Assembly: GCF_018129025.1 (NCBI RefSeq)
Contig: NZ_JAAEDI010000009.1
Coordinates: forward strand, 1-64,000
DNA length: 64,000 nt
Reading direction: 5' to 3'
Source of the DNA: Neoroseomonas terrae
GTDB lineage: Bacteria > Pseudomonadota > Alphaproteobacteria > Acetobacterales > Acetobacteraceae
Shown: positions 45,482 to 57,890 of the stretch, piece after piece
How positions within the stretch are numbered: position 1 is the stretch's first letter
Layout of the letters: each line of letters opens with the position of its first letter
Notes under the pieces: generated by a model
The model's database searches: none
The model's input: the letters and a program-made list of their open reading frames with translations, nothing else
What the model was told of the DNA's origin: nothing
Translations under genes and position numbers: made by a program

Positions 45482-45686
45482 CGCCAATCAAGCGCAGCAG
45501 GCAGGAGTCGAGATACCACATGCGGTTCGGGAGGCCGCCGATGGTGCCTGCCTCGGTGAAGCCGAGATACTCGGGGCACTCGATCCGCGGTGGTTCGACC
45601 TGCCATCACGAGGGCCGCCTCCGTGGCGAGCTGAAGGCCGTAGCGTCTTGGGAGAACGCGTTGTGGTGGCGAAAAGTACGAAGCGG

Positions 45687-46340
45687 TTACTGTGGCTCGC
45701 GCTCCGTTTCCTCCGCAATCTTCCGGAGTTGGTGAAGACCGATGCCGGCCTTGCATCGGAGAAGGAAAAGGGTTTCCGTCGATCGGATCTCGTCCATGAA
45801 ATCGAAGATCCTCTGGTAGCCTGCTCGCTTAGACGTGACGTCGTGCACCAGAATCAACGCATCGCTGACCCGCCTCTCAATAAGGAACTCAGCGGTTCGG
45901 GCACAACACGCCACGCGGAACCGGCCATCCACAAGTACCAGATCTGGCGTCTGCGCCATTCGATCCCAGACAGGCCAAGGCGCCCGGGAATATGTCGGCC
46001 ACGCGTCAATCTTGTCTAAGTTAGCCGGGTAACCCCAAGCTCTTACCGGGCCGAGATCAACATGCTCGACGATTACGCGTCGGTGAGCAAGCGCATCGCT
46101 CAGATTGTCTTGGGCAAGTACCGCTTCAATCCAGCGAGCGTCAGATTCCACGGACACCACCATTTCGGCACCAGATCTAACAAATAGAGACGTCGACCCA
46201 CCAATACCGAATTCCGTGACACACCGACTCTTCAACGCAAGCTCGCGCAACATTTTGATCTCAGGGGCGCTCATTCGCGGATGGAGGATTTTTGGACGCC
46301 GCTCGCCACCAGACAGTGGTTCGATCTCATTCTCCAACAA
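45687..46340 (-). CDS. Class I SAM-dependent methyltransferase-like protein
   Basis: A 217-aa protein with a Rossmann methyltransferase-like core: CVTEFGIGGSTSLFVRSGAE (motif I, about residues 40-59), VVSVESDARWIEAVL (acidic residue after beta2), then PDLVLVDGRFRVACCARTAEF and ALILVHDV. Related small proteins occur in surface-polysaccharide clusters. The substrate is unknown. It is last in a minus-strand series after the GT61 fusion, 129 bp away. Base composition is clearly less GC-rich than glyA next door, suggesting lateral origin. Confidence 0.78.
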   Translation of the reverse strand: MLENEIEPLSGGERRPKILHPRMSAPEIKMLRELALKSRCVTEFGIGGSTSLFVRSGAEMVVSVESDARWIEAVLAQDNLSDALAHRRVIVEHVDLGPVRAWGYPANLDKIDAWPTYSRAPWPVWDRMAQTPDLVLVDGRFRVACCARTAEFLIERRVSDALILVHDVTSKRAGYQRIFDFMDEIRSTETLFLLRCKAGIGLHQLRKIAEETEREPQ

Positions 46341-46469
46341 AACGCGCCCCTCGCCGCAGAATCGTCAACCAGACTCTAAGCTCGTCGCCGGACATGGCTG
46401 CGACCAATCTGAAATTCTCCCATTAAATTGATATGGATACAGGCCTTGCCAATACTTAAAGAATTTCGG

Positions 46470-49166
46470 CTACGGTGCGGCAGTCTCCCGCAGTAGACTA
46501 CGAATGCCCGCCTCGATCGATGAAAGATCGGCGCTGAAGTCTGCTGACTGACGTTCCTGTCCAAGGCGAACGACTGATCCCGCAGCTTCTACGATAAAGG
46601 GTTGATATCTCAAGTTCCTAAGCGCCGCCATAACCGCGAAAGCCGGCGTCCCATAGTTAGCGGGGAAGAACTCCGCCACCCCCGTGCGTTCTCGGCAGAA
46701 AAGGATATTCTGAAAAGCTGCACCATGCGGGCCAGCTACATGTGCGGCCGACATCATTAGCTGTACCTGCTCGGCAAATGGCATGGCGCCGGCATCTATG
46801 GCACGGAAGCCCAGCTTCTCGACCAGTTGGTTGACCTCAGCTTCATTGACCAGATGGCGGATCTTGGTTTCCCCACGAGTCAACCAAATGCGCTTGGAGG
46901 GCAGACCGTCGGCCCTTGGCAGGCGCCGAAGAAGCGCGGAGGCATACTTCGCATTTCCGTGTTGAAAGTATCTCTGGAATCGATGCGATGAAGAATCTAG
47001 AATCTTTAATACCTCGCAATGATAGAGTCCATTCGCGATATTATGTACACTGTGAGGGTCTATTCCAAAAAACGACAGTGAATCTAACTGGAATTTTTTG
47101 GCATCATACCGCGGAATGCCGATCTTTAAATCGACACCAAGGTCATTGGCCACCAAAATTCTCGGCAGGTAGTCGGATATCCAATGACAGTAATTACGCG
47201 GAGCAAACCGATCCCCGGCATAAAATATACTCCCGAGGGAGACGGGAGATCGATCTCGAATCAAATCAACGTGCGTTGGAAGCGCATAGGGATATGAAAT
47301 ATCTAACGGATTCCAATCCCGATCGAGCAAAATAAAGCCTGATTCAAACACATACAAGTAAACATTTCGGTAAGAACGCAGATTCACGTCCTGTTCGGGT
47401 CGAAAATTTCGCGCAAAGGATGAGGCCGGATGTCTGGGCCAGTCCTTGAATACTCCCGCGATACGCGGATCAGCTTCCTGACCTTGCACCGCAACGACAG
47501 CGCAATCGTCGTGGTCGAGCGCTTCGGGCGACGGGGCATCTGGCGCAACAAGCCATGCAAGTCGAAAGTGGGGTGGCAAACGCGAGAGAGCGCGCACCAA
47601 TCGTTCATTGCTGCGTCCTATCGCTCGACGCTGGCGAAGGATATCGACAACGTTAACGATGCCGCCCAGATCGGCGCGCCCTGGATCGATGCCCTCCACC
47701 AAGTCACACAATGCTTCAATCGCATCGAACTCACGTTCGCACTCCACAAGGACCAGCGCGCGCAGCAACTGCAGCGACCGCGGTAAAGCACGCATATCCT
47801 GAACATCGAACACCGCCGCAGCCTCATCGTATCGACCAAGGCGTCGGAGTGCTTCAACATGCGGCCGGACCAGTGTGACGGCATTCGATAAGCGCGCAGA
47901 GGCCGAAGCGATGAGGTCGATAACATCGGCCGGCCTGTTCGTTTTCAGGAGAATGTCGGCCAGCAGCAACGCGTGTTCACTGGTTGCACTCGGCTGTGCC
48001 CAGGCCAACGTCGCCAGTTCGAGTGCAGCCGGCAAGTCACGCATCGCCAGTGCGACTTCCGCGCGGCAACGCAGCATCCCGGCATCTAAGGGCACCTCCG
48101 CAAGCACCGCCTGCGCAATCGCGTCAGCTTCGAGACGGGCCTTCTTCCCCAATAGCCTCCAGGCCTCAGCGCGAAGCGCCCTAATCCGATCCTTGCCCGG
48201 AACCGGAGACGGTGCGCGCTGCGGCAACTTGGCACCACCATCGTTAGCAAACTCGACAATCCTCGCAGGATCCCGTGCCGCCAACGTTGTTCCCCGATCG
48301 CTGACGGAAACGGCGTCGACCTGGGCCGTAAATACTGCCTGATCAATCGACTTCGCCGCGGCGATGAGTTGGTAGTTCGCGCCAATGCCACCAGGTCGGG
48401 CGACGATACGCACTTTTGACGGAACGTCGTCGAACAGCGCCAGCGTATGGAATGCCGACCCCTCGAAACCGGCAATCACCTCAGCGCCCGCAATCATAGT
48501 GAGTTGCTCGCGTACTGAGAGCTTCTCAGGCGAGAGAACGGCCCAGCCGCGCTCCAGGAGTCGGGCCTCAACATCAGCCTCACCGGCGATCGTACGCGCC
48601 TTCAGTTGAGAGCGGGATATCCACACCCGGTGGCCGCGGCGCTTCGCACCGAACGAAACACATCCAAGGGCACGCACCTGACGCTCAGCAAACTCATCCA
48701 AGAGAACGAAGCCTGGCTCGGGCACCGTCAGATTCGAAATCTGAGTAGGCGAGACAACAAAGCGATGCTCTCGCCCCCCAAGACCCACGATATTGATTAG
48801 CTCCGCCTGCCAACGCCAAAATCCAGCATGCCCATCGACGCCGTGCCAGATGATTGGCAAGTGATCGCTACAGGCCTTCAAAAACCAAAGCCGGGCGAGC
48901 GTCTCCAAGAGGAAGTGACCCCACTGAGCGAACGAAATGCCCCCGTAGACATACTCGCCTTCGAGAATCTCCGTCGGATGCTGGAAAGTCGCATCAGCGG
49001 TTGTGGATCGTCCCCGGCGAAGACGAAACTCCTTAATAGGCAGCCCATTCTGATCGAGGGCGCCGACCCGAAAAGGCGCGCCGCCCGATGCAAGCCGCTC
49101 CACAGGAAGAAGAAGCGCGCGGTGAAACGCCGCAACGCGCGCATCGAACCTGCCCGGCGCCGTCAC
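46470..49166 (-). CDS. Double GT61 glycosyltransferase: GT61-TPR-GT61 fusion
   Basis: An 898-aa cytoplasmic protein. Residues about 60-310 form a DUF563/GT61 domain (GISFAQWGHFLLETLARLWF, HRVWISRSQLKARTI, MIAGAEVIAGFEGSAFHTLALF). Residues about 325-570 are TPR-like helices. Residues about 573-890 form a second GT61 domain (FAPRNYCHWISDYLPRILVA, KRIWLTRGETKIRHL, MMSAAHVAGPHGAAFQNILF). Both carry the conserved late Gly-x-Glu/His-Gly site. GT61 enzymes transfer sugars to surface glycans. The GTG start overlaps the sulfotransferase stop (GTGA). DNA for the second domain is much more AT-rich than for the first, so I infer a fusion of two sources. Confidence 0.85.
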   Translation of the reverse strand: MTAPGRFDARVAAFHRALLLPVERLASGGAPFRVGALDQNGLPIKEFRLRRGRSTTADATFQHPTEILEGEYVYGGISFAQWGHFLLETLARLWFLKACSDHLPIIWHGVDGHAGFWRWQAELINIVGLGGREHRFVVSPTQISNLTVPEPGFVLLDEFAERQVRALGCVSFGAKRRGHRVWISRSQLKARTIAGEADVEARLLERGWAVLSPEKLSVREQLTMIAGAEVIAGFEGSAFHTLALFDDVPSKVRIVARPGGIGANYQLIAAAKSIDQAVFTAQVDAVSVSDRGTTLAARDPARIVEFANDGGAKLPQRAPSPVPGKDRIRALRAEAWRLLGKKARLEADAIAQAVLAEVPLDAGMLRCRAEVALAMRDLPAALELATLAWAQPSATSEHALLLADILLKTNRPADVIDLIASASARLSNAVTLVRPHVEALRRLGRYDEAAAVFDVQDMRALPRSLQLLRALVLVECEREFDAIEALCDLVEGIDPGRADLGGIVNVVDILRQRRAIGRSNERLVRALSRLPPHFRLAWLVAPDAPSPEALDHDDCAVVAVQGQEADPRIAGVFKDWPRHPASSFARNFRPEQDVNLRSYRNVYLYVFESGFILLDRDWNPLDISYPYALPTHVDLIRDRSPVSLGSIFYAGDRFAPRNYCHWISDYLPRILVANDLGVDLKIGIPRYDAKKFQLDSLSFFGIDPHSVHNIANGLYHCEVLKILDSSSHRFQRYFQHGNAKYASALLRRLPRADGLPSKRIWLTRGETKIRHLVNEAEVNQLVEKLGFRAIDAGAMPFAEQVQLMMSAAHVAGPHGAAFQNILFCRERTGVAEFFPANYGTPAFAVMAALRNLRYQPFIVEAAGSVVRLGQERQSADFSADLSSIEAGIRSLLRETAAP

Positions 49167-50023
49167 GACCCCACCCCGGCCGCGACCATTGGCACGCGAC
49201 GAATCGGTAATGCGCGCATTTCGTCCCGAACTCGCTCCAATCTTCGCTCGAGAACAGCACGAATTGCTTCCGGCATTTCCAAGCGCTCCCCGACAAAAAC
49301 AGGCTCGTAAGCGGATAGGTTAATTTTGGAGTGCACGGAAATTCCGAGGAATCGACAAATATCTCCCAGAAATTCGCAAGGAGTTTCAGCAATATTCTTC
49401 AGACAAGAAAGATATATTTTATCAAATCCAAAAATACTAACCCATTTTTGATATATTGACACAAAATTACTTCTATCAAGAACGTCCGAGCTTTGTGCGG
49501 CCTGCAATAAATCCAATTTCGTGTGATTTTTTGCCAACATTCTCAAGTGCGACCAGCACCGATCAACGGGATCGCGCAGGAGAAATATAATCTTTAATTC
49601 AGGATTTAGTCTCTTAACGTGCTCAATTCCTTGCACAGGTAGCAAGCTATACTCTGGCGTAACCTCGCCGCAGACTTGATCGGCGCGCGCATGAGCGAAG
49701 ATCCGTCCATACCAGTCATCAGAGACGGACGACGTTCCGATGGAGGTGATGCGGTGTAGAATTGTCATATCGAGCGGCTTGTCCTCCGCTCGCCGAACCA
49801 ATCGTCGCGCCGCCTTCTCGGCATGCTGCCATCGATGCCGGCCCGTCCATGCCCGATGCGCCGGGATATGCACATCGTTGAAGAACTGCAGTTCCTTGAT
49901 CCACGGCATCCATATCTGCGGATGTCGTCGGAGATTCGCATCGAGCCATGTGGTGCCCGCCTTCTGCGCACCGATGCACAGAAAATCGGGATAGCGCATC
50001 TCTTGTTGTGCCGCAGCGGTCAT
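49163..50023 (-). CDS. Sulfotransferase family protein (minus-strand copy)
   Basis: A 286-aa PAPS-dependent sulfotransferase. The 5'-phosphosulfate loop is FLCIGAQKAGTTWLDANLR near the N-terminus, and the 3'-phosphate motif is KIIFLLRDPVDRCWSHLRM. It transfers sulfate from PAPS to an acceptor, here probably a sugar (inference from context). The start at 50023 has GGAAGG upstream; 50035 is an alternative. The N-terminal half has ordinary composition and resembles the divergent paralogue; the C-terminal half (below about 49650) is very AT-rich, so the gene looks mosaic. Upstream partner of the GT61 fusion. Confidence 0.9.
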   Translation of the reverse strand: MTAAAQQEMRYPDFLCIGAQKAGTTWLDANLRRHPQIWMPWIKELQFFNDVHIPAHRAWTGRHRWQHAEKAARRLVRRAEDKPLDMTILHRITSIGTSSVSDDWYGRIFAHARADQVCGEVTPEYSLLPVQGIEHVKRLNPELKIIFLLRDPVDRCWSHLRMLAKNHTKLDLLQAAQSSDVLDRSNFVSIYQKWVSIFGFDKIYLSCLKNIAETPCEFLGDICRFLGISVHSKINLSAYEPVFVGERLEMPEAIRAVLERRLERVRDEMRALPIRRVPMVAAGVGS

Positions 50024-50100
50024 GCGGCCTTCCATGTCGCATGACCGGGCGCTAAGGAAAAGAGCCGCCCCCTCTGAAGGGCGCCGTTCCGGAGTGGTTC

Positions 50101-51054
50101 ATGCTCGAGAAGATTGCGCAGAAAGAGGAAGCAGCCGTCGCCTCGCCGGACCGCCGCAGCCCGCATTATGCGCCAATCACGTCGTCGCGTGCCGCGCGGC
50201 CCGATTTCATCTGCATCGGCGCGCAGAAGGCAGGCACGACTTGGCTCTACGCCAATCTGCGCGGCCATCCCGGAATCCTGATGCCGCCCGTCAAGGAGGT
50301 CGCGTATTTCTCATCGCTCTACGTCCCCGGCTGGGCCAAGGCGGATGCGGATCACCGCGCCTTCCAGGTCGGCCAAGCGCGCAAGCACTGGACGCTGACC
50401 GATCGGCCTGGTGGCAAGGAACCTCGGCCCGAGATCCGTGCCCGCGTCATCGCCAGTCTCGATGCCCTGGCCCAGGAACCGATGACGGATGAGGCATACG
50501 CAACACTCTTCGAAGGCTGCGGAGTGGATCAGATCTGCGGAGAGATCTCGCCGCAATATTCCGTGCTACCCCGCGAGGCGATTCGCCATGCACTGGCTTT
50601 CAATCCGAACCTGAAGGTCATTGTCCTGCTGCGCCATCCCGTCGCCCGAGCGATGTCCCACCTCGCCATGCTATGCGGGAAGACACCGACCGCTGGCCGG
50701 ATGAAGGAGATCGCACTCTCCAACTGGTGGAACGGCGTGGCCTGGTACTCCGACTATGGAAACTGGCTCCTGCGCTGGAGGGGCATGCTTCCGACCGGTC
50801 AGCTACACATTGATTACAACGGCCTGATCCGCGACGACCCGATGGGTGTGCTCCGCCGCATCTGCGACTTTCTCGGCCTCCCTTTCAGCGAAGCCAGTTT
50901 CCCCAAAGCGCGCGAGAAGGTCTTCGAAGGCGGTAAGCCGGACGGTGATCTCGACGAGGTACGCGCCATCGTCGCCGAGAAGCTGGCACCGCAGCTCGAA
51001 GACCTGCGGCAGCGCCTGCCGACCATCGCAGCGGGGCTGGACCGGTACGGGTAG
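50101..51054 (+). CDS. Sulfotransferase family protein (plus-strand copy)
   Basis: A 317-aa PAPS-dependent sulfotransferase. PAPS motifs are FICIGAQKAGTTWLYANLRG (residues about 36-55) and KVIVLLRHPVARAMSHLAML (about 177-196); QICGEISPQYSVLP lies between. It is divergent, across 77 bp, from a paralogue that shares the first 35 residues of the PAPS region closely. Base composition is uniform and close to the chromosome average, unlike its partner. It is followed by a coiled-coil protein and glycosyltransferases, so a carbohydrate acceptor is likely. Confidence 0.92.
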   Translation: MLEKIAQKEEAAVASPDRRSPHYAPITSSRAARPDFICIGAQKAGTTWLYANLRGHPGILMPPVKEVAYFSSLYVPGWAKADADHRAFQVGQARKHWTLTDRPGGKEPRPEIRARVIASLDALAQEPMTDEAYATLFEGCGVDQICGEISPQYSVLPREAIRHALAFNPNLKVIVLLRHPVARAMSHLAMLCGKTPTAGRMKEIALSNWWNGVAWYSDYGNWLLRWRGMLPTGQLHIDYNGLIRDDPMGVLRRICDFLGLPFSEASFPKAREKVFEGGKPDGDLDEVRAIVAEKLAPQLEDLRQRLPTIAAGLDRYG

Positions 51055-51146
51055 GATACGGTTACCCAATCTTGGGTTGACCGGTGCTCCTCAACGACAC
51101 AGCATTTCCTGCGGCGAGCGCTGCGTGCTTGCCGAAAGCGAAGCCC

Positions 51147-51743
51147 ATGGATGCTATCTTGACCAATGAAGGCGCAATCGCGGCCGATGCGGCGTCAGAC
51201 ACCGAGCGGCTCCGCGCCGAGGTTGCTGAGTTGCGCGCACGTCTCGATTCCTACGAACGCATCCTCCAGCTACGCGACGCTGCACTACCTGCCACCGCTA
51301 CCCCGGCCTCCGCCGAGACAACAGCTCTCCCCACCACCCACGACATCGCCGCCGACCAGCTCCTCCCCGCCCAGGACGGCTTCTACCAGCTCGAATGGGG
51401 CCCCGATGGCGCGCTGCGCTGGACCGGCCCCGACCATGACGTCCATTTCGAAGCCTGGATCGACCGTTCCGCCCCCCTCATCGCCACCTTCCGCCTTTTC
51501 CACTTCGGCACCCCCGACAACGCAAAGGCCCTCGCCATCGAGGTCGACGGCCAGCGCTACCCCCTCCATCACCAAGGCCCCGGCAAGGTCATGCGCTCAG
51601 AACCCATTGCTCCGCGCGATACCGACGGCCCCACCCGCGTGACGCTGCACGTACCGCACATCCACTCGCCGTCCGACCACGGCGCGGCCGACAGGCGCCG
51701 GCTCGGCGTGGCCTTCCAGACCCTACGCCTCGCCCGTGACTGA
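51147..51743 (+). CDS. Coiled-coil protein with unrecognised beta-rich domain
   Basis: A 198-aa protein I cannot assign. Residues about 17-45 form a short coiled coil with heptad Leu (TERLRAEVAELRARLDSYER). A Thr/Pro/Ala linker follows, then a beta-rich domain (GFYQLEWGPDGALRWTGPDH, FEAWIDRSAPLIATFRLFHF, LAIEVDGQRYPL). It has no signal peptide. The stop overlaps the GT2 start by 8 bases, so it is co-translated with the glycosyltransferases. A role as an adaptor or sugar-binding partner is inference. An upstream GTG at 51084 is possible. Confidence 0.7.
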   Translation: MDAILTNEGAIAADAASDTERLRAEVAELRARLDSYERILQLRDAALPATATPASAETTALPTTHDIAADQLLPAQDGFYQLEWGPDGALRWTGPDHDVHFEAWIDRSAPLIATFRLFHFGTPDNAKALAIEVDGQRYPLHHQGPGKVMRSEPIAPRDTDGPTRVTLHVPHIHSPSDHGAADRRRLGVAFQTLRLARD

Positions 51744-52701
51744 CGGCGTCGTCTCCGGCGCCCCGCGCGTCACTGCCGCCATCTGCACCTATGAACGCTA
51801 CGACCTTCTTCCCGGCGCCATTGAATCGGTGCTGGCACAATCCCTGCCGCCTGGCTCGTTCGAGCTGATCGTCGTCGACAACTCGCCCGACCCCGCGCGT
51901 TCGGCGCGCGAAGCCGCGCCCTTCGCCGACAGGCCCGGCGTTACCTGGCGGCACGAGGCCCGCCCCGGCCTGTCCAACGCCCGCAACGTCGCGGCACGGC
52001 ACGCACGCGCGCCCATCATCGCCTACCTTGACGACGATGCGCGCGCCGACCCCGTCTGGCTGCAGAACGTCGCCGGCTGCTTCGACCAGTTCGGCGAGGC
52101 TGTCAGCGTGGTCGGCGGTCGCATCCGTCCCTGGTGGGGGGCGCCGCGACCCGCGTGGCTGCCGGACGAGATGCTGGGCGAGGTCACCGTCGTCGACCTC
52201 GGCCCCAAGCGCCGGCTTCTTGCCGATGGCGAATGGGTTGCGGGCGCCAACATCGCGTTCCGGATCGCGGCCCTGCGCAATGCCGGCTGGTTCGACACCT
52301 CCCTTGGGCGCACCGGCGGCGGCGCCAGCCTGCTCTCCGCCGAGGAGACAGCGCTCACCGAGCGTATCAAGGCACTCGGCGGGCTCGTGGCCTATGACCC
52401 GCTCGCCGCGGTGGACCATTGGGTCGACCCGGGGCGCCTCACGCAGCGTTGGTTCCGCCGCCGGGCTGCCTGGCAGGCGGTTTCAGAATACCTGCGCGAT
52501 CCGAAGGCGCAGTTCGACCGCAGCGATGATGCCTGGGCCGCCGTCAAGGGCTACCTCCTCACCCAGAATCCCGCCGACCGCACGATGCGTGGACTCGCCC
52601 TGCACAAGGATGACGCCGCGGATTTCCGCTGGCAGGCCGGGGCCGTCTACAATGCGGTGATCGCGCTGCTCGCCGGGCTGGACGAACAGGATGACGTCTG
52701 A
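51736..52701 (+). CDS. Family 2 glycosyltransferase
   Basis: A 321-aa inverting GT-A glycosyltransferase. It opens with TAAICTYERYDLLPGAIESV, then FELIVVDNSPDP and the nucleotide-metal motif in IIAYLDDDARADPVWL. WVAGANIAFRIAALRNAGWFD and the acid-rich EETALTERIKALGG lie near the acceptor region. No membrane helices are present, so it acts in the cytoplasm. The start is GTG at 51736, inside the end of the upstream gene. It overlaps the next gene by 11 bp, forming an operon. The sugar donor is unknown. Confidence 0.93.
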   Translation: MTDGVVSGAPRVTAAICTYERYDLLPGAIESVLAQSLPPGSFELIVVDNSPDPARSAREAAPFADRPGVTWRHEARPGLSNARNVAARHARAPIIAYLDDDARADPVWLQNVAGCFDQFGEAVSVVGGRIRPWWGAPRPAWLPDEMLGEVTVVDLGPKRRLLADGEWVAGANIAFRIAALRNAGWFDTSLGRTGGGASLLSAEETALTERIKALGGLVAYDPLAAVDHWVDPGRLTQRWFRRRAAWQAVSEYLRDPKAQFDRSDDAWAAVKGYLLTQNPADRTMRGLALHKDDAADFRWQAGAVYNAVIALLAGLDEQDDV

Positions 52702-54976
52702 TGCGCCGTTGCCCGCCCCGGGTGGTTCCTGGGCGGGGCTGCGCGTCCTGGTGCTGTCGCCGGTGCCGACCTGGCCGGTCACTTTCGGCAACCGCAACCG
52801 CATCGTCCAGGTGAACCGCGCCCTGCAGCGCGAAGGCGCGCATGTGGCGCTCCTGCACTACCCGTCGGATGAGGAATGGCGCACCCGCCTGCCCCGCGAC
52901 GCTCTGGCTGCCATGGCCGGACAATGGGACGAGGTCTTCCACACGCCGGTCACCCGCCCGCTGCATTCCCGCCCATCCGCCGGCCCCGACCACGCCGCCG
53001 ACGACTGGTGGGACCCGGCCATCGGCCAGATGCTCGACTGGCTGTTCAAGATCGGCCGCTACGATGCGCTGCTGGTCAACTATACGTGGCTGTCGAAGGC
53101 GCTCGAACACGCGCCGTCCGGCGTCCTGCGCATCCTCGACACGCATGACCGCTTCTCCGGCCGACGCGACCTGCTGGCTGCCAACGGCCTCTCCGCCGAA
53201 TACTTCCACACGACCGAGGAACAGGAACGGCTCGCCCTCGGCCGCGCCGACATCGTCTGGGCGATCAAGGAGCAGGAGGCGGCGTTCTTCGCGACCCTGA
53301 CCGCCCGGCCCGTGCGCACGCTGCTGCACATGGAACCACCCGCGCCGTCCGGCCCCGCGCGGCCGGCTGACGGCCTGCTGCGTTTCGGCATCGTCGGCGG
53401 GCGCAACAACATCAATGCAAGCAACATCCGCCGCTTCCTCGAAGCAGCCGATGCCTATCTCCGCCGCACCCTGCTGCCAGTCGAGATCGTCGTCGCCGGC
53501 TCAGTCTGCGACCTGCTGGAAGGGTTGCACCTTCCCTATCTGCGCCAGCTCGGCCGGGTCGAGACGATGGACGCGCTCTACGACCAAGTCGACGCCGTCC
53601 TCGCGCCGCTGGCCTTCTCGACCGGGCTCAAGATCAAGGTGGGGGAGGCGCTGGCGCGGGGCAGGCCGCTGATCAGCCACGTCCACGCTTTTGAGGGCTA
53701 CGCCGCGACCCACCCCTTCCACGAATGCGCCGATTTCGACGCCATGATGCGCGCGATCCACCGGCTGGTGCGTGAGCCGGAGGCGCTGGAAGCACTTGCC
53801 AAGGCGTCGCGCCGCTCCGTGGCCTCCGCCGAACAGGGCATCGCGGAAACCCTGGCCCATGCGGGAACGCTGGCGGGGGAACTGCCGCCTTCGGTCGTGA
53901 TCGCCCTCCGCTTCGACCAGGCCCGACCGGGCAGCCTCATCCTCGACCATGCCATCGACGTCGCCCGCTATGCCGGCTTCCGTGCGCCGATCGCGCTGCA
54001 TTTCTCCGGTGACCCGGAAGCCGCCGACCCAGCGGCGCTGCGGCTGCTCGCCACCCGCGGGCGCCCGGTCGTTGACCCCGCCTGCGGGGCGTTGCCCGCC
54101 GCTGTCGCGCAGTCGCTGTTCGACGACAAGCGCCCGCGCCGCGCCGGTTTGTGGGAAATACTGGCCGGGCCGCATCTCATCGCCTGGTTCGCCACCCTGC
54201 CCGATGCGGGGCCCTCGGCGCCAGTTCGCACCCGGCTCGGCGTGGCACATGCGGCGGCGATGGCGATGCAGGGCAGCCTCGACGACCGCCTCACGACGCT
54301 CGCCGGCGCCTTCCCGCGCTTTCTTCTGCTCGAGGAAGCGCCCTCCCGCGCGGCGGCGGCGATCCGCCGGGCAGCGGGTGCCGCGCATGCTGCCGTCCCG
54401 CTGCTCTGGCGGGGCGAGGACAGCCGGCTCATCGCCGCGCTGCGCGGCGGCGCGGACGGGCCGGTCGCCCTGCTGGCCGAGGATCCGGCCGCCCCGGATC
54501 TGCTCCCCGTCCTTGCCTGTCTCACCGCCGCACAGCGCCGCGCGGTGACGATCTTCGCGCCGGACGGCGCAGCCATGCCCGACTGGCCCACCGATGGCCC
54601 GCTCGCCGTGCGGCGGGAGGCCATCTCGCTCGCCGCCACGGGCGCCTTCTTCGACCCAGGCGGCTGGAACGGCCGCCGACCGGCTTTCATCGTCGAACTC
54701 GGCCGCCCCGCGAGGACACGCCCGGCGCGGGAGATCGCTCTCCGCGCCGGCATCCCCCATCTGCGCATCGGTGATCCCGCAGCACCGGATGTCGTCTCTA
54801 CCGCGCCAGCTCTCGCCTACCGCACCCGCAGCTTCGTCTCGGCGGCGCTGGTCATGGCGGCGCTCGACCGCCGTGCCGGCATTCCGGCCGAGGCGAGCGA
54901 CGCCGCCGAGGAATTCGGCCGCGACGCGGGGTGGGCGCGCATCTGGGCGGAGGTCGGGCGGGTGATGGCCGCCTAG
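52691..54976 (+). CDS. GT4-like glycosyltransferase with novel C-terminal domain
   Basis: A 761-aa protein. Residues about 15-400 are a GT-B glycosyltransferase (GT4-like): LRVLVLSPVPTWPVTFGNRN, LRFGIVGGRNNINASNIRRF, VEIVVAGSVCDLLEG and the donor-site AFSTGLKIKVGEALARGRPL. Residues about 405-761 are not recognised: strand/helix alternation rich in Ala, Arg and Pro (SVVIALRFDQARPGSLILDH, RTRLGVAHAAAMAMQGSLDD). No membrane segment is seen. It is last in the plus-strand glycan operon and followed by metY. Confidence 0.82.
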   Translation: MTSDAPLPAPGGSWAGLRVLVLSPVPTWPVTFGNRNRIVQVNRALQREGAHVALLHYPSDEEWRTRLPRDALAAMAGQWDEVFHTPVTRPLHSRPSAGPDHAADDWWDPAIGQMLDWLFKIGRYDALLVNYTWLSKALEHAPSGVLRILDTHDRFSGRRDLLAANGLSAEYFHTTEEQERLALGRADIVWAIKEQEAAFFATLTARPVRTLLHMEPPAPSGPARPADGLLRFGIVGGRNNINASNIRRFLEAADAYLRRTLLPVEIVVAGSVCDLLEGLHLPYLRQLGRVETMDALYDQVDAVLAPLAFSTGLKIKVGEALARGRPLISHVHAFEGYAATHPFHECADFDAMMRAIHRLVREPEALEALAKASRRSVASAEQGIAETLAHAGTLAGELPPSVVIALRFDQARPGSLILDHAIDVARYAGFRAPIALHFSGDPEAADPAALRLLATRGRPVVDPACGALPAAVAQSLFDDKRPRRAGLWEILAGPHLIAWFATLPDAGPSAPVRTRLGVAHAAAMAMQGSLDDRLTTLAGAFPRFLLLEEAPSRAAAAIRRAAGAAHAAVPLLWRGEDSRLIAALRGGADGPVALLAEDPAAPDLLPVLACLTAAQRRAVTIFAPDGAAMPDWPTDGPLAVRREAISLAATGAFFDPGGWNGRRPAFIVELGRPARTRPAREIALRAGIPHLRIGDPAAPDVVSTAPALAYRTRSFVSAALVMAALDRRAGIPAEASDAAEEFGRDAGWARIWAEVGRVMAA

Positions 54977-55138
54977 GTCGGATCGCGTCAGGGAACGCAT
55001 TGCGCGCGCGGCGCGCCCGCCGGGCGCCGGTCATAACGGTGCAAATTCCTTTCCCATCGGCAGCCGGACGCCGAAACTCCTGCTCTCTCCGGCCCGCCAT
55101 CCGCGATGCCTGCATTTCCCTTTCGCTGCGCCGCAACC

Positions 55139-57890
<2,752 letters not shown>

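Follow-up and report, generated by a model that had tools for sequence, protein, structure and literature searches.

A GT61-TPR-GT61 fusion protein combining two GT61 lineages in a variable glycan locus of Neoroseomonas terrae

Genes of the locus and domains of the fusion protein

The DNA analysed here, referred to as the window, is a stretch of 64,000 nucleotides from Neoroseomonas terrae. Between glyA (SHMT) and a gene matching the Pfam family Cys_Met_Meta_PP, which we take to be metZ-like, it carries a fusion gene predicted to encode two GT61 glycosyltransferase domains, together with sulfotransferase and further glycosyltransferase genes (Table 1). The fusion gene is one uninterrupted frame of 898 codons, and four bases (GTGA) are common to its GTG start and the stop of the sulfotransferase gene upstream.

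Table 1. Features of the fusion gene and its neighbourhood. Positions are those of the window; residues are those of the fusion protein unless stated otherwise.
Feature	Position	Strand	Basis
GT61-TPR-GT61 fusion protein, 898 aa	46470..49166	-	ORF list, Pfam, overlap sequence
N-terminal GT61 domain (N-domain), residues 8-313	48228..49145	-	PF04577, AlphaFold2 model, POMGNT2 match, motif columns
Most likely fusion joint, residues 310-340	48147..48239	-	N-type gene length, start of Belnapia alignment, model tail
TPR-like helical linker, residues 321-550	47517..48206	-	AlphaFold2 helices, structure matches to TPR proteins
C-terminal GT61 domain (C-domain), residues 555-898	46473..47504	-	PF04577, POMGNT2 match, motif columns
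Low-GC patch, residues 571-740, GC 0.447	46947..47456	-	GC by residue block
217-aa protein, no Pfam match	45687..46340	-	42% identical over 180 residues to same-locus protein in sibling G206
Sulfotransferase (Sulfotransfer_3), 4-base overlap with fusion gene	49163..50035	-	Pfam, GC, alignment
Second sulfotransferase	50101..51054	+	76-82% identical copies at the locus in siblings G206, G213 and G204
Small gene of the locus	51084..51743	+	Profile search, sibling comparison
GT2 glycosyltransferase	51736..52701	+	Pfam
761-aa protein, Pfam match (GT4 type) at its residues 233-360 only	52691..54976	+	Pfam

Across the genus, the glycan locus between glyA and the metZ-like gene (45487-55140) differs between species. 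Of the 34 other genomes of the genus, 11 have the two flanking genes on a single contig and no more than 11 kb apart; in the remaining genomes, only some of which were inspected, the flanks are on separate contigs or one flank is missing. In G104 and G208 only about 0.6 kb separates the flanks, which leaves the interval almost empty. Beside the metZ-like gene, a GT4-type gene is found in 12 siblings, a GT2 gene in 10 and the second sulfotransferase in three, and the part of the locus adjoining glyA varies among siblings. In two of them (G206 and G204) a single-domain GT2_4/GT92-type gene replaces the fusion gene and follows the same sulfotransferase gene, which it likewise overlaps by four bases, and in G213 two GT61 genes of the type of the N-domain (N-type) lie side by side next to glyA. 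Genes at the sibling loci were called by a simple codon-composition rule, so some of these frames may be wrong.

The upstream sulfotransferase gene has a conserved first part and a divergent last part of low GC (0.426, at 49,200-49,600). Compared with two sibling copies, its product is 68-78% identical over residues 12-175 and 31% identical over residues 176-272, where the siblings are 46% identical to each other (Fisher p 0.04, for a border chosen after the alignment had been seen). A recombination border may lie near 49,500, and a cassette exchange with its border inside this gene is possible. An APS kinase is present in the genome but also in 11 of 14 control genomes, so that it supports a sulfated glycan only weakly.

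Two matches to PF04577 exceed the 27-bit cut-off in the fusion protein (E 2e-40 over the whole chain), with 57.9 bits for the N-domain (48435-48923) and 89.1 bits for the C-domain (46677-47192). AlphaFold2 models, built with 44 sequences for the N half and 42 for the C half, drawn from the window and related loci, reached pLDDT 81 and pTM 0.80 for residues 1-332, and pLDDT 77 and pTM 0.68 for residues 321-898. Both modelled domains match the GT61 enzyme POMGNT2, with Z of 16.0-16.6 for the N-domain (rmsd 4.7-5.2 over 264-273 residues, the next-best fold reaching only Z 9.1) and 16.3-17.2 for the C-domain (rmsd 5.3-6.6 over 267-279 residues, TPR folds ranking below POMGNT2 in the C model), and through this match both conform to the GT-B-type fold of GT61 enzymes. 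Foldseek TM-scores of the N model are modest (0.44-0.51 by query length). By these computations both halves are GT61 domains with a predicted POMGNT2-like fold, neither failing to match the family, in agreement with an earlier note on this DNA that had proposed two GT61 domains in one 898-residue protein.

The region between the two domains is modelled as a helical superhelix (residues about 325-540). Its best matches among TPR proteins have Z of about 14, a value that, by the tool's own warning, can be common for helical repeats. No TPR profile passes its Pfam cut-off in the linker, the best being ANAPC3 (16.3 bits vs 27.2), with TPR_7 at 15.8 vs 27.9. The TPR linker that had been proposed is thus borne out as a superhelix of helix pairs in the model, but not at the level of the Pfam profiles. 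The same region of a relative from Belnapia rosea passes two TPR cut-offs (TPR_14, 31.4 bits vs 23.5).

Phylogeny and donor-site residues of the two domains

The two domains were compared within a sample of 236 GT61 domains from 231 GT61 frames, out of 2602 frames in the collected loci, a sample that leans towards relatives of the query. The C-domain is the 118th of the 199 hit rows of the N-domain, and the N-domain the 197th of the 235 hit rows of the C-domain, row counts that also take in the query and a few second pieces. An 82-row tree was built from the 18 nearest relatives of the N-domain, 15 of the C-domain, the 7 domains of the other multi-domain proteins, 40 random domains and both queries. 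In it, the N-domain falls in a 22-row group (SH-aLRT 96) within a 29-row side (96), and the C-domain in the opposite side of 53 rows (96). Forcing the two domains to be sisters is rejected (delta lnL 106, AU p 4e-8). A fast tree of all 236 domains likewise shows an N side, of 47 rows and with support 95; both trees were made by quick methods. Different phylogenetic origins of the two domains are therefore well supported by sequence computation, and these trees agree with the proposal of the earlier note that genes from different sources were fused. Its qualification of this fusion as recent is not supported, the best relatives found being 47% identical to the N-domain and 37-40% to the C-domain. 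N-type relatives occur in 14 congeners as single-GT61 genes, 30-45% identical.

A study of EOGT reports, in its available text, that an Asn and two Arg bind UDP, that a His three residues after the Asn is likely catalytic, and that other residues occur at the Asn site within GT61 (PMC13123520). Read from sequence alignments, the C-domain carries the full N-H-R-R set (N658, H661, R764 and R770), and the N-domain has Q81, H84, R185 and R191 at the same sites; the two domains have the His and the Arg pair in common, and the Asn is replaced by Gln in the N-domain. R191 and R770 each stand four residues before the N/G column, like the matching Arg in POMGNT2. On the N side of the 236-row tree (47 rows), the Asn column holds His in 38 rows and Gln in 5, the second-Arg column holds Arg in 7, Gly in 24 and Ala in 9 (Gly in 11 and Ala in 5 of the 18 nearest relatives of the N-domain), and the column of the likely catalytic His holds His in 45. 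The C side keeps the Asn in 136 of 189 rows and the second Arg in 176. A tentative and somewhat doubtful reading of these columns would make the N-domain a member of an unrecognised GT61 subclass for a different sugar donor, with the phosphate-binding Asn exchanged for His or Gln and the second Arg mostly lost, fused to a canonical N-H-R-R domain in a two-donor enzyme.

The Asn of N-R-R is common among the bacterial GT61 domains of the 236-domain alignment, being present in 11 of 14 named Pseudomonadota rows and in 69 of 143 further rows, a frequency that contrasts with the statement, in the available text of the same study, that Proteobacteria have Gly at this site (PMC13123520).

Position of the join and origin of the chain

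The Belnapia rosea relative (classified at NCBI in Acetobacterales, Roseomonadaceae) is a TPR-GT61 protein of 594 aa (L149:5164-6948, genome G172), and aligns to the fusion protein with few gaps from about residue 338 to the end, through the linker and the C-domain. Identity is 37% in the GT61 part and 22.8% over 243 residues of the linker; since the latter is low, the unity of linker and C-domain rests on this collinearity and on a match that becomes stronger beyond about residue 530. Because linker and C-domain are collinear with one protein, the join is expected upstream of the linker. A stand-alone N-type gene in another genome (G127) encodes 312 aa, 41% identical to the N-domain, and N-type relatives elsewhere are either stand-alone genes or form the C-end of longer proteins (three cases); the tail of the N-half model (residues 320-332) has pLDDT below 50. 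On these alignments the join is best placed at residues 310-340 (about 48,150-48,240), rather than at 47,450. Read-through of neighbouring genes was considered and rejected, the sequence that follows the N-type gene of G127 beyond its stop codon being unlike the linker, as judged by eye.

The position at 47,450 had been derived from an abrupt change in base composition, and the counts quoted for it are correct (21 G/C at 47041-47100 and 41 at 48061-48120). GC is 0.605 over residues 1-320, 0.619 over residues 321-570, 0.447 over residues 571-740 and 0.581 over residues 741-898. The patch hence ends inside the C-domain, which speaks against the idea that it marks the entry of the second domain's DNA. 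Third-position GC shifts best at about 47,630-47,657 (residues 503-512) and back at 46,952 (residue 738); of 200 codon shuffles, one matched the gain from a single change. GC is low in each of the three minus-strand genes (0.51-0.58 vs 0.687 for the window).

Three other accounts of how the chain arose have to be weighed. A recent join of sources differing in composition, with the step at 47,450 as its scar, could draw on the drop in GC near residue 571 (0.619 before it, 0.447 after it) and on the low GC of the Belnapia rosea gene itself (0.43), a point in favour of the earlier note. It is nevertheless very unlikely: a linker of GC 0.62 and the C-domain are together collinear with one protein, and the relatives found are less than 50% identical. 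As GC returns to 0.58 within the same domain and a similar patch lies in the neighbouring sulfotransferase gene, the low-GC patch is not regarded as a fusion scar, a candidate that collinearity and GC recovery together rule out. Because a single draft genome (67 contigs) is the source of the fusion, an assembly artefact that links two genes of the same cluster also has to be considered, the more so as none of the 34 other genus genomes searched has two PF04577 matches in one frame (judged by eye from coordinates and frame lengths), although the family gives 74 matches in 23 of the 35 genomes of the genus, the fusion genome included. Such an artefact is very unlikely for one uninterrupted frame with a collinear C-terminal unit, which starts with the same four-base sulfotransferase overlap as the replacing gene in two siblings. 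An internal duplication of one GT61 domain would explain why both domains match one Pfam family, but its probability is close to nil, as either domain ranks below more than 100 rows in the hit list of its partner, and the 82-row tree with its AU test (p 4e-8) rejects it.

Distribution, proposed function and known systems

No second fusion of an N-type to a C-type domain in one frame was found among the matches listed in 200 genomes of the family, 385 of the class and 395 of the order (overlapping sets, with 2-4 candidates scored per genome). None of the 39 plasmid records with a match covers 80% of the fusion protein, and the single matching phage record covers just 23% of it. An N-type alignment gave 37 pattern matches and no relative in viral contigs, and the fusion protein alone gave 67 pattern matches and no relative in GTDB contigs. 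With a C-type alignment 530 relatives were recovered from GTDB contigs, and none of the 98 GT61 frames on the loci of the best 80 of these has two GT61 domains. The search for GT61-x-GT61 proteins suggested by the earlier note thus returned no second copy of this fusion in the searches made, and no bacterial protein with two GT61 domains appeared in the titles or abstract openings listed in searches of open-access literature.

Two or more GT61 domains occur in 4 of the 121 frames first collected, which were chosen partly for length. The three frames other than the fusion, for which Pfam agrees, are L045:9157-12738 (G194), of 1193 aa and with three GT61 domains, and L046 (1290 aa) and L048 (947 aa), with two each. 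All seven of their domains fall on the C side of the tree, opposite the N-domain of the fusion protein, so these proteins probably had a separate origin. Among 67 complete GT61 frames of at least 450 residues (the fusion protein and L115 left out), at least 6 have TPR, at least 3 GT2_4, at least 3 Methyltransf_24 and at least 2 WcbI matches, and by such profile matches GT61 is often modular in the collected frames. L133:3186-5951, L134:2630-5326, L049:1490-4327 and L049:4508-7963 are examples, with GT61 chained to WcbI, WcbI plus TPR, GT2_4/GT92 or methyltransferase domains. Overlapping but unfused N-side and C-side GT61 neighbours are present at L078:389-2520 (G207) and L076:501-2394 (G210), so the two types also occur together elsewhere; their order, C then N, is the reverse of that in the fusion. 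The 15 adjacent GT61 pairs observed comprise 12 C-C, 1 N-N and 2 mixed pairs.

The reading that we narrowly favour, largely by analogy, is that the protein is a chimera of a GT61 domain from a genus-resident subfamily and an entire TPR-GT61 protein from a different subfamily, with the join at about residues 310-340, giving a two-site enzyme that would add two sugars to a sulfated surface glycan. As in POMGNT2 and EOGT, each domain may transfer a single sugar from a nucleotide-sugar donor, H84 and H661 serving as putative catalytic bases and the two Arg of each domain holding the donor phosphates. The linker would keep the sites close to each other and might also bring about oligomerisation, and the two sugars would be added in turn to a surface glycan on which the overlapping and neighbouring sulfotransferases may act; it is the two sulfotransferase genes in the neighbourhood that suggest a sulfated glycan. 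The donor-site signatures differ (Q-H-R-R vs N-H-R-R), which makes different donors or acceptors probable for the two sites. With the His and two Arg kept in both domains, a bifunctional enzyme adding two successive sugars, as the earlier note had supposed, is plausible.

Alternatively, only the C-domain may be catalytic, the N-domain being an altered GT61 domain that binds the acceptor glycan or has a regulatory role. The Gln at the Asn site of the N-domain, the prevalence of His there in its relatives (38/47), the replacement of the second Arg by Gly (24/47) or Ala (9/47) in N-side rows and the lower Pfam score (57.9 vs 89.1 bits) could all be read in this way. We consider this unlikely, since the N-domain retains the His and both Arg, and 45 of the 47 N-side rows have the His; moreover, the N side is a coherent clade with many stand-alone genes, a pattern more suggestive of an enzyme that uses another donor than of decay.

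GT61 enzymes have been studied mainly in plants and animals, and bacterial members have been little tested. Inside a locus with transferases exchanged between species, a single chain with two phylogenetically different GT61 sites and differing donor signatures would offer a compact test both of how subfamilies differ in their choice of donor and of how fusion gives glycan loci new transferases. If it proves ordinary, the fusion protein is one more modular glycan enzyme.

The closest comparison for the linker and C-domain is the Belnapia rosea protein, which is collinear with this part of the fusion and is without an N-terminal GT61 domain. The N-domain has its counterparts in single-GT61 genes of the genus and family (e.g., G213 L238 and G127 L036), of the same subfamily and up to 47% identical, which unlike the fusion have one GT61 domain and no fused TPR-GT61 unit. 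L045, L046 and L048 resemble the fusion in having several GT61 domains per chain and differ in their side of the tree. Among characterised enzymes, POMGNT2 and EOGT (structures 7e9j and 9wjk) are related to the fusion protein by a fold match to the former and profile matches to both, and share the His and the Arg pair with both fusion domains and the Asn with the C-domain (PMC13123520); unlike the fusion, they are animal enzymes with one GT61 domain each, acting on proteins. In PgtB of Dictyostelium a GT61-like domain is likewise chained with other glycosyltransferase domains, but these are GT1-, GT2- and GT4-like and the GT61-like domain is F-R-R, as far as the available text describes it (PMC13123520).

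The capsule polymerases Cps1B and Cps7D also combine two transferase domains and TPR in one chain, of TagF-like plus GT-A or GT-B type rather than GT61, and with the TPR at one end instead of mid-chain as in the fusion protein; the TPR domain drives oligomerisation of Cps1B (PMC5974469, available text). No TagF-like domain was detected in the fusion protein, for which Pfam gives only GT61 and weak TPR-type matches (E up to 1). According to partial texts, a Vibrio cluster for a sulfated capsule contains a GT61 gene together with sulfotransferases (PMC11641403), and two transferase modules are present in one chain in Klebsiella O7 (PMC11231755). As chains with two transferases and TPR, and chains with two modules, are already known, the GT61-TPR-GT61 architecture is a variant on a known theme.
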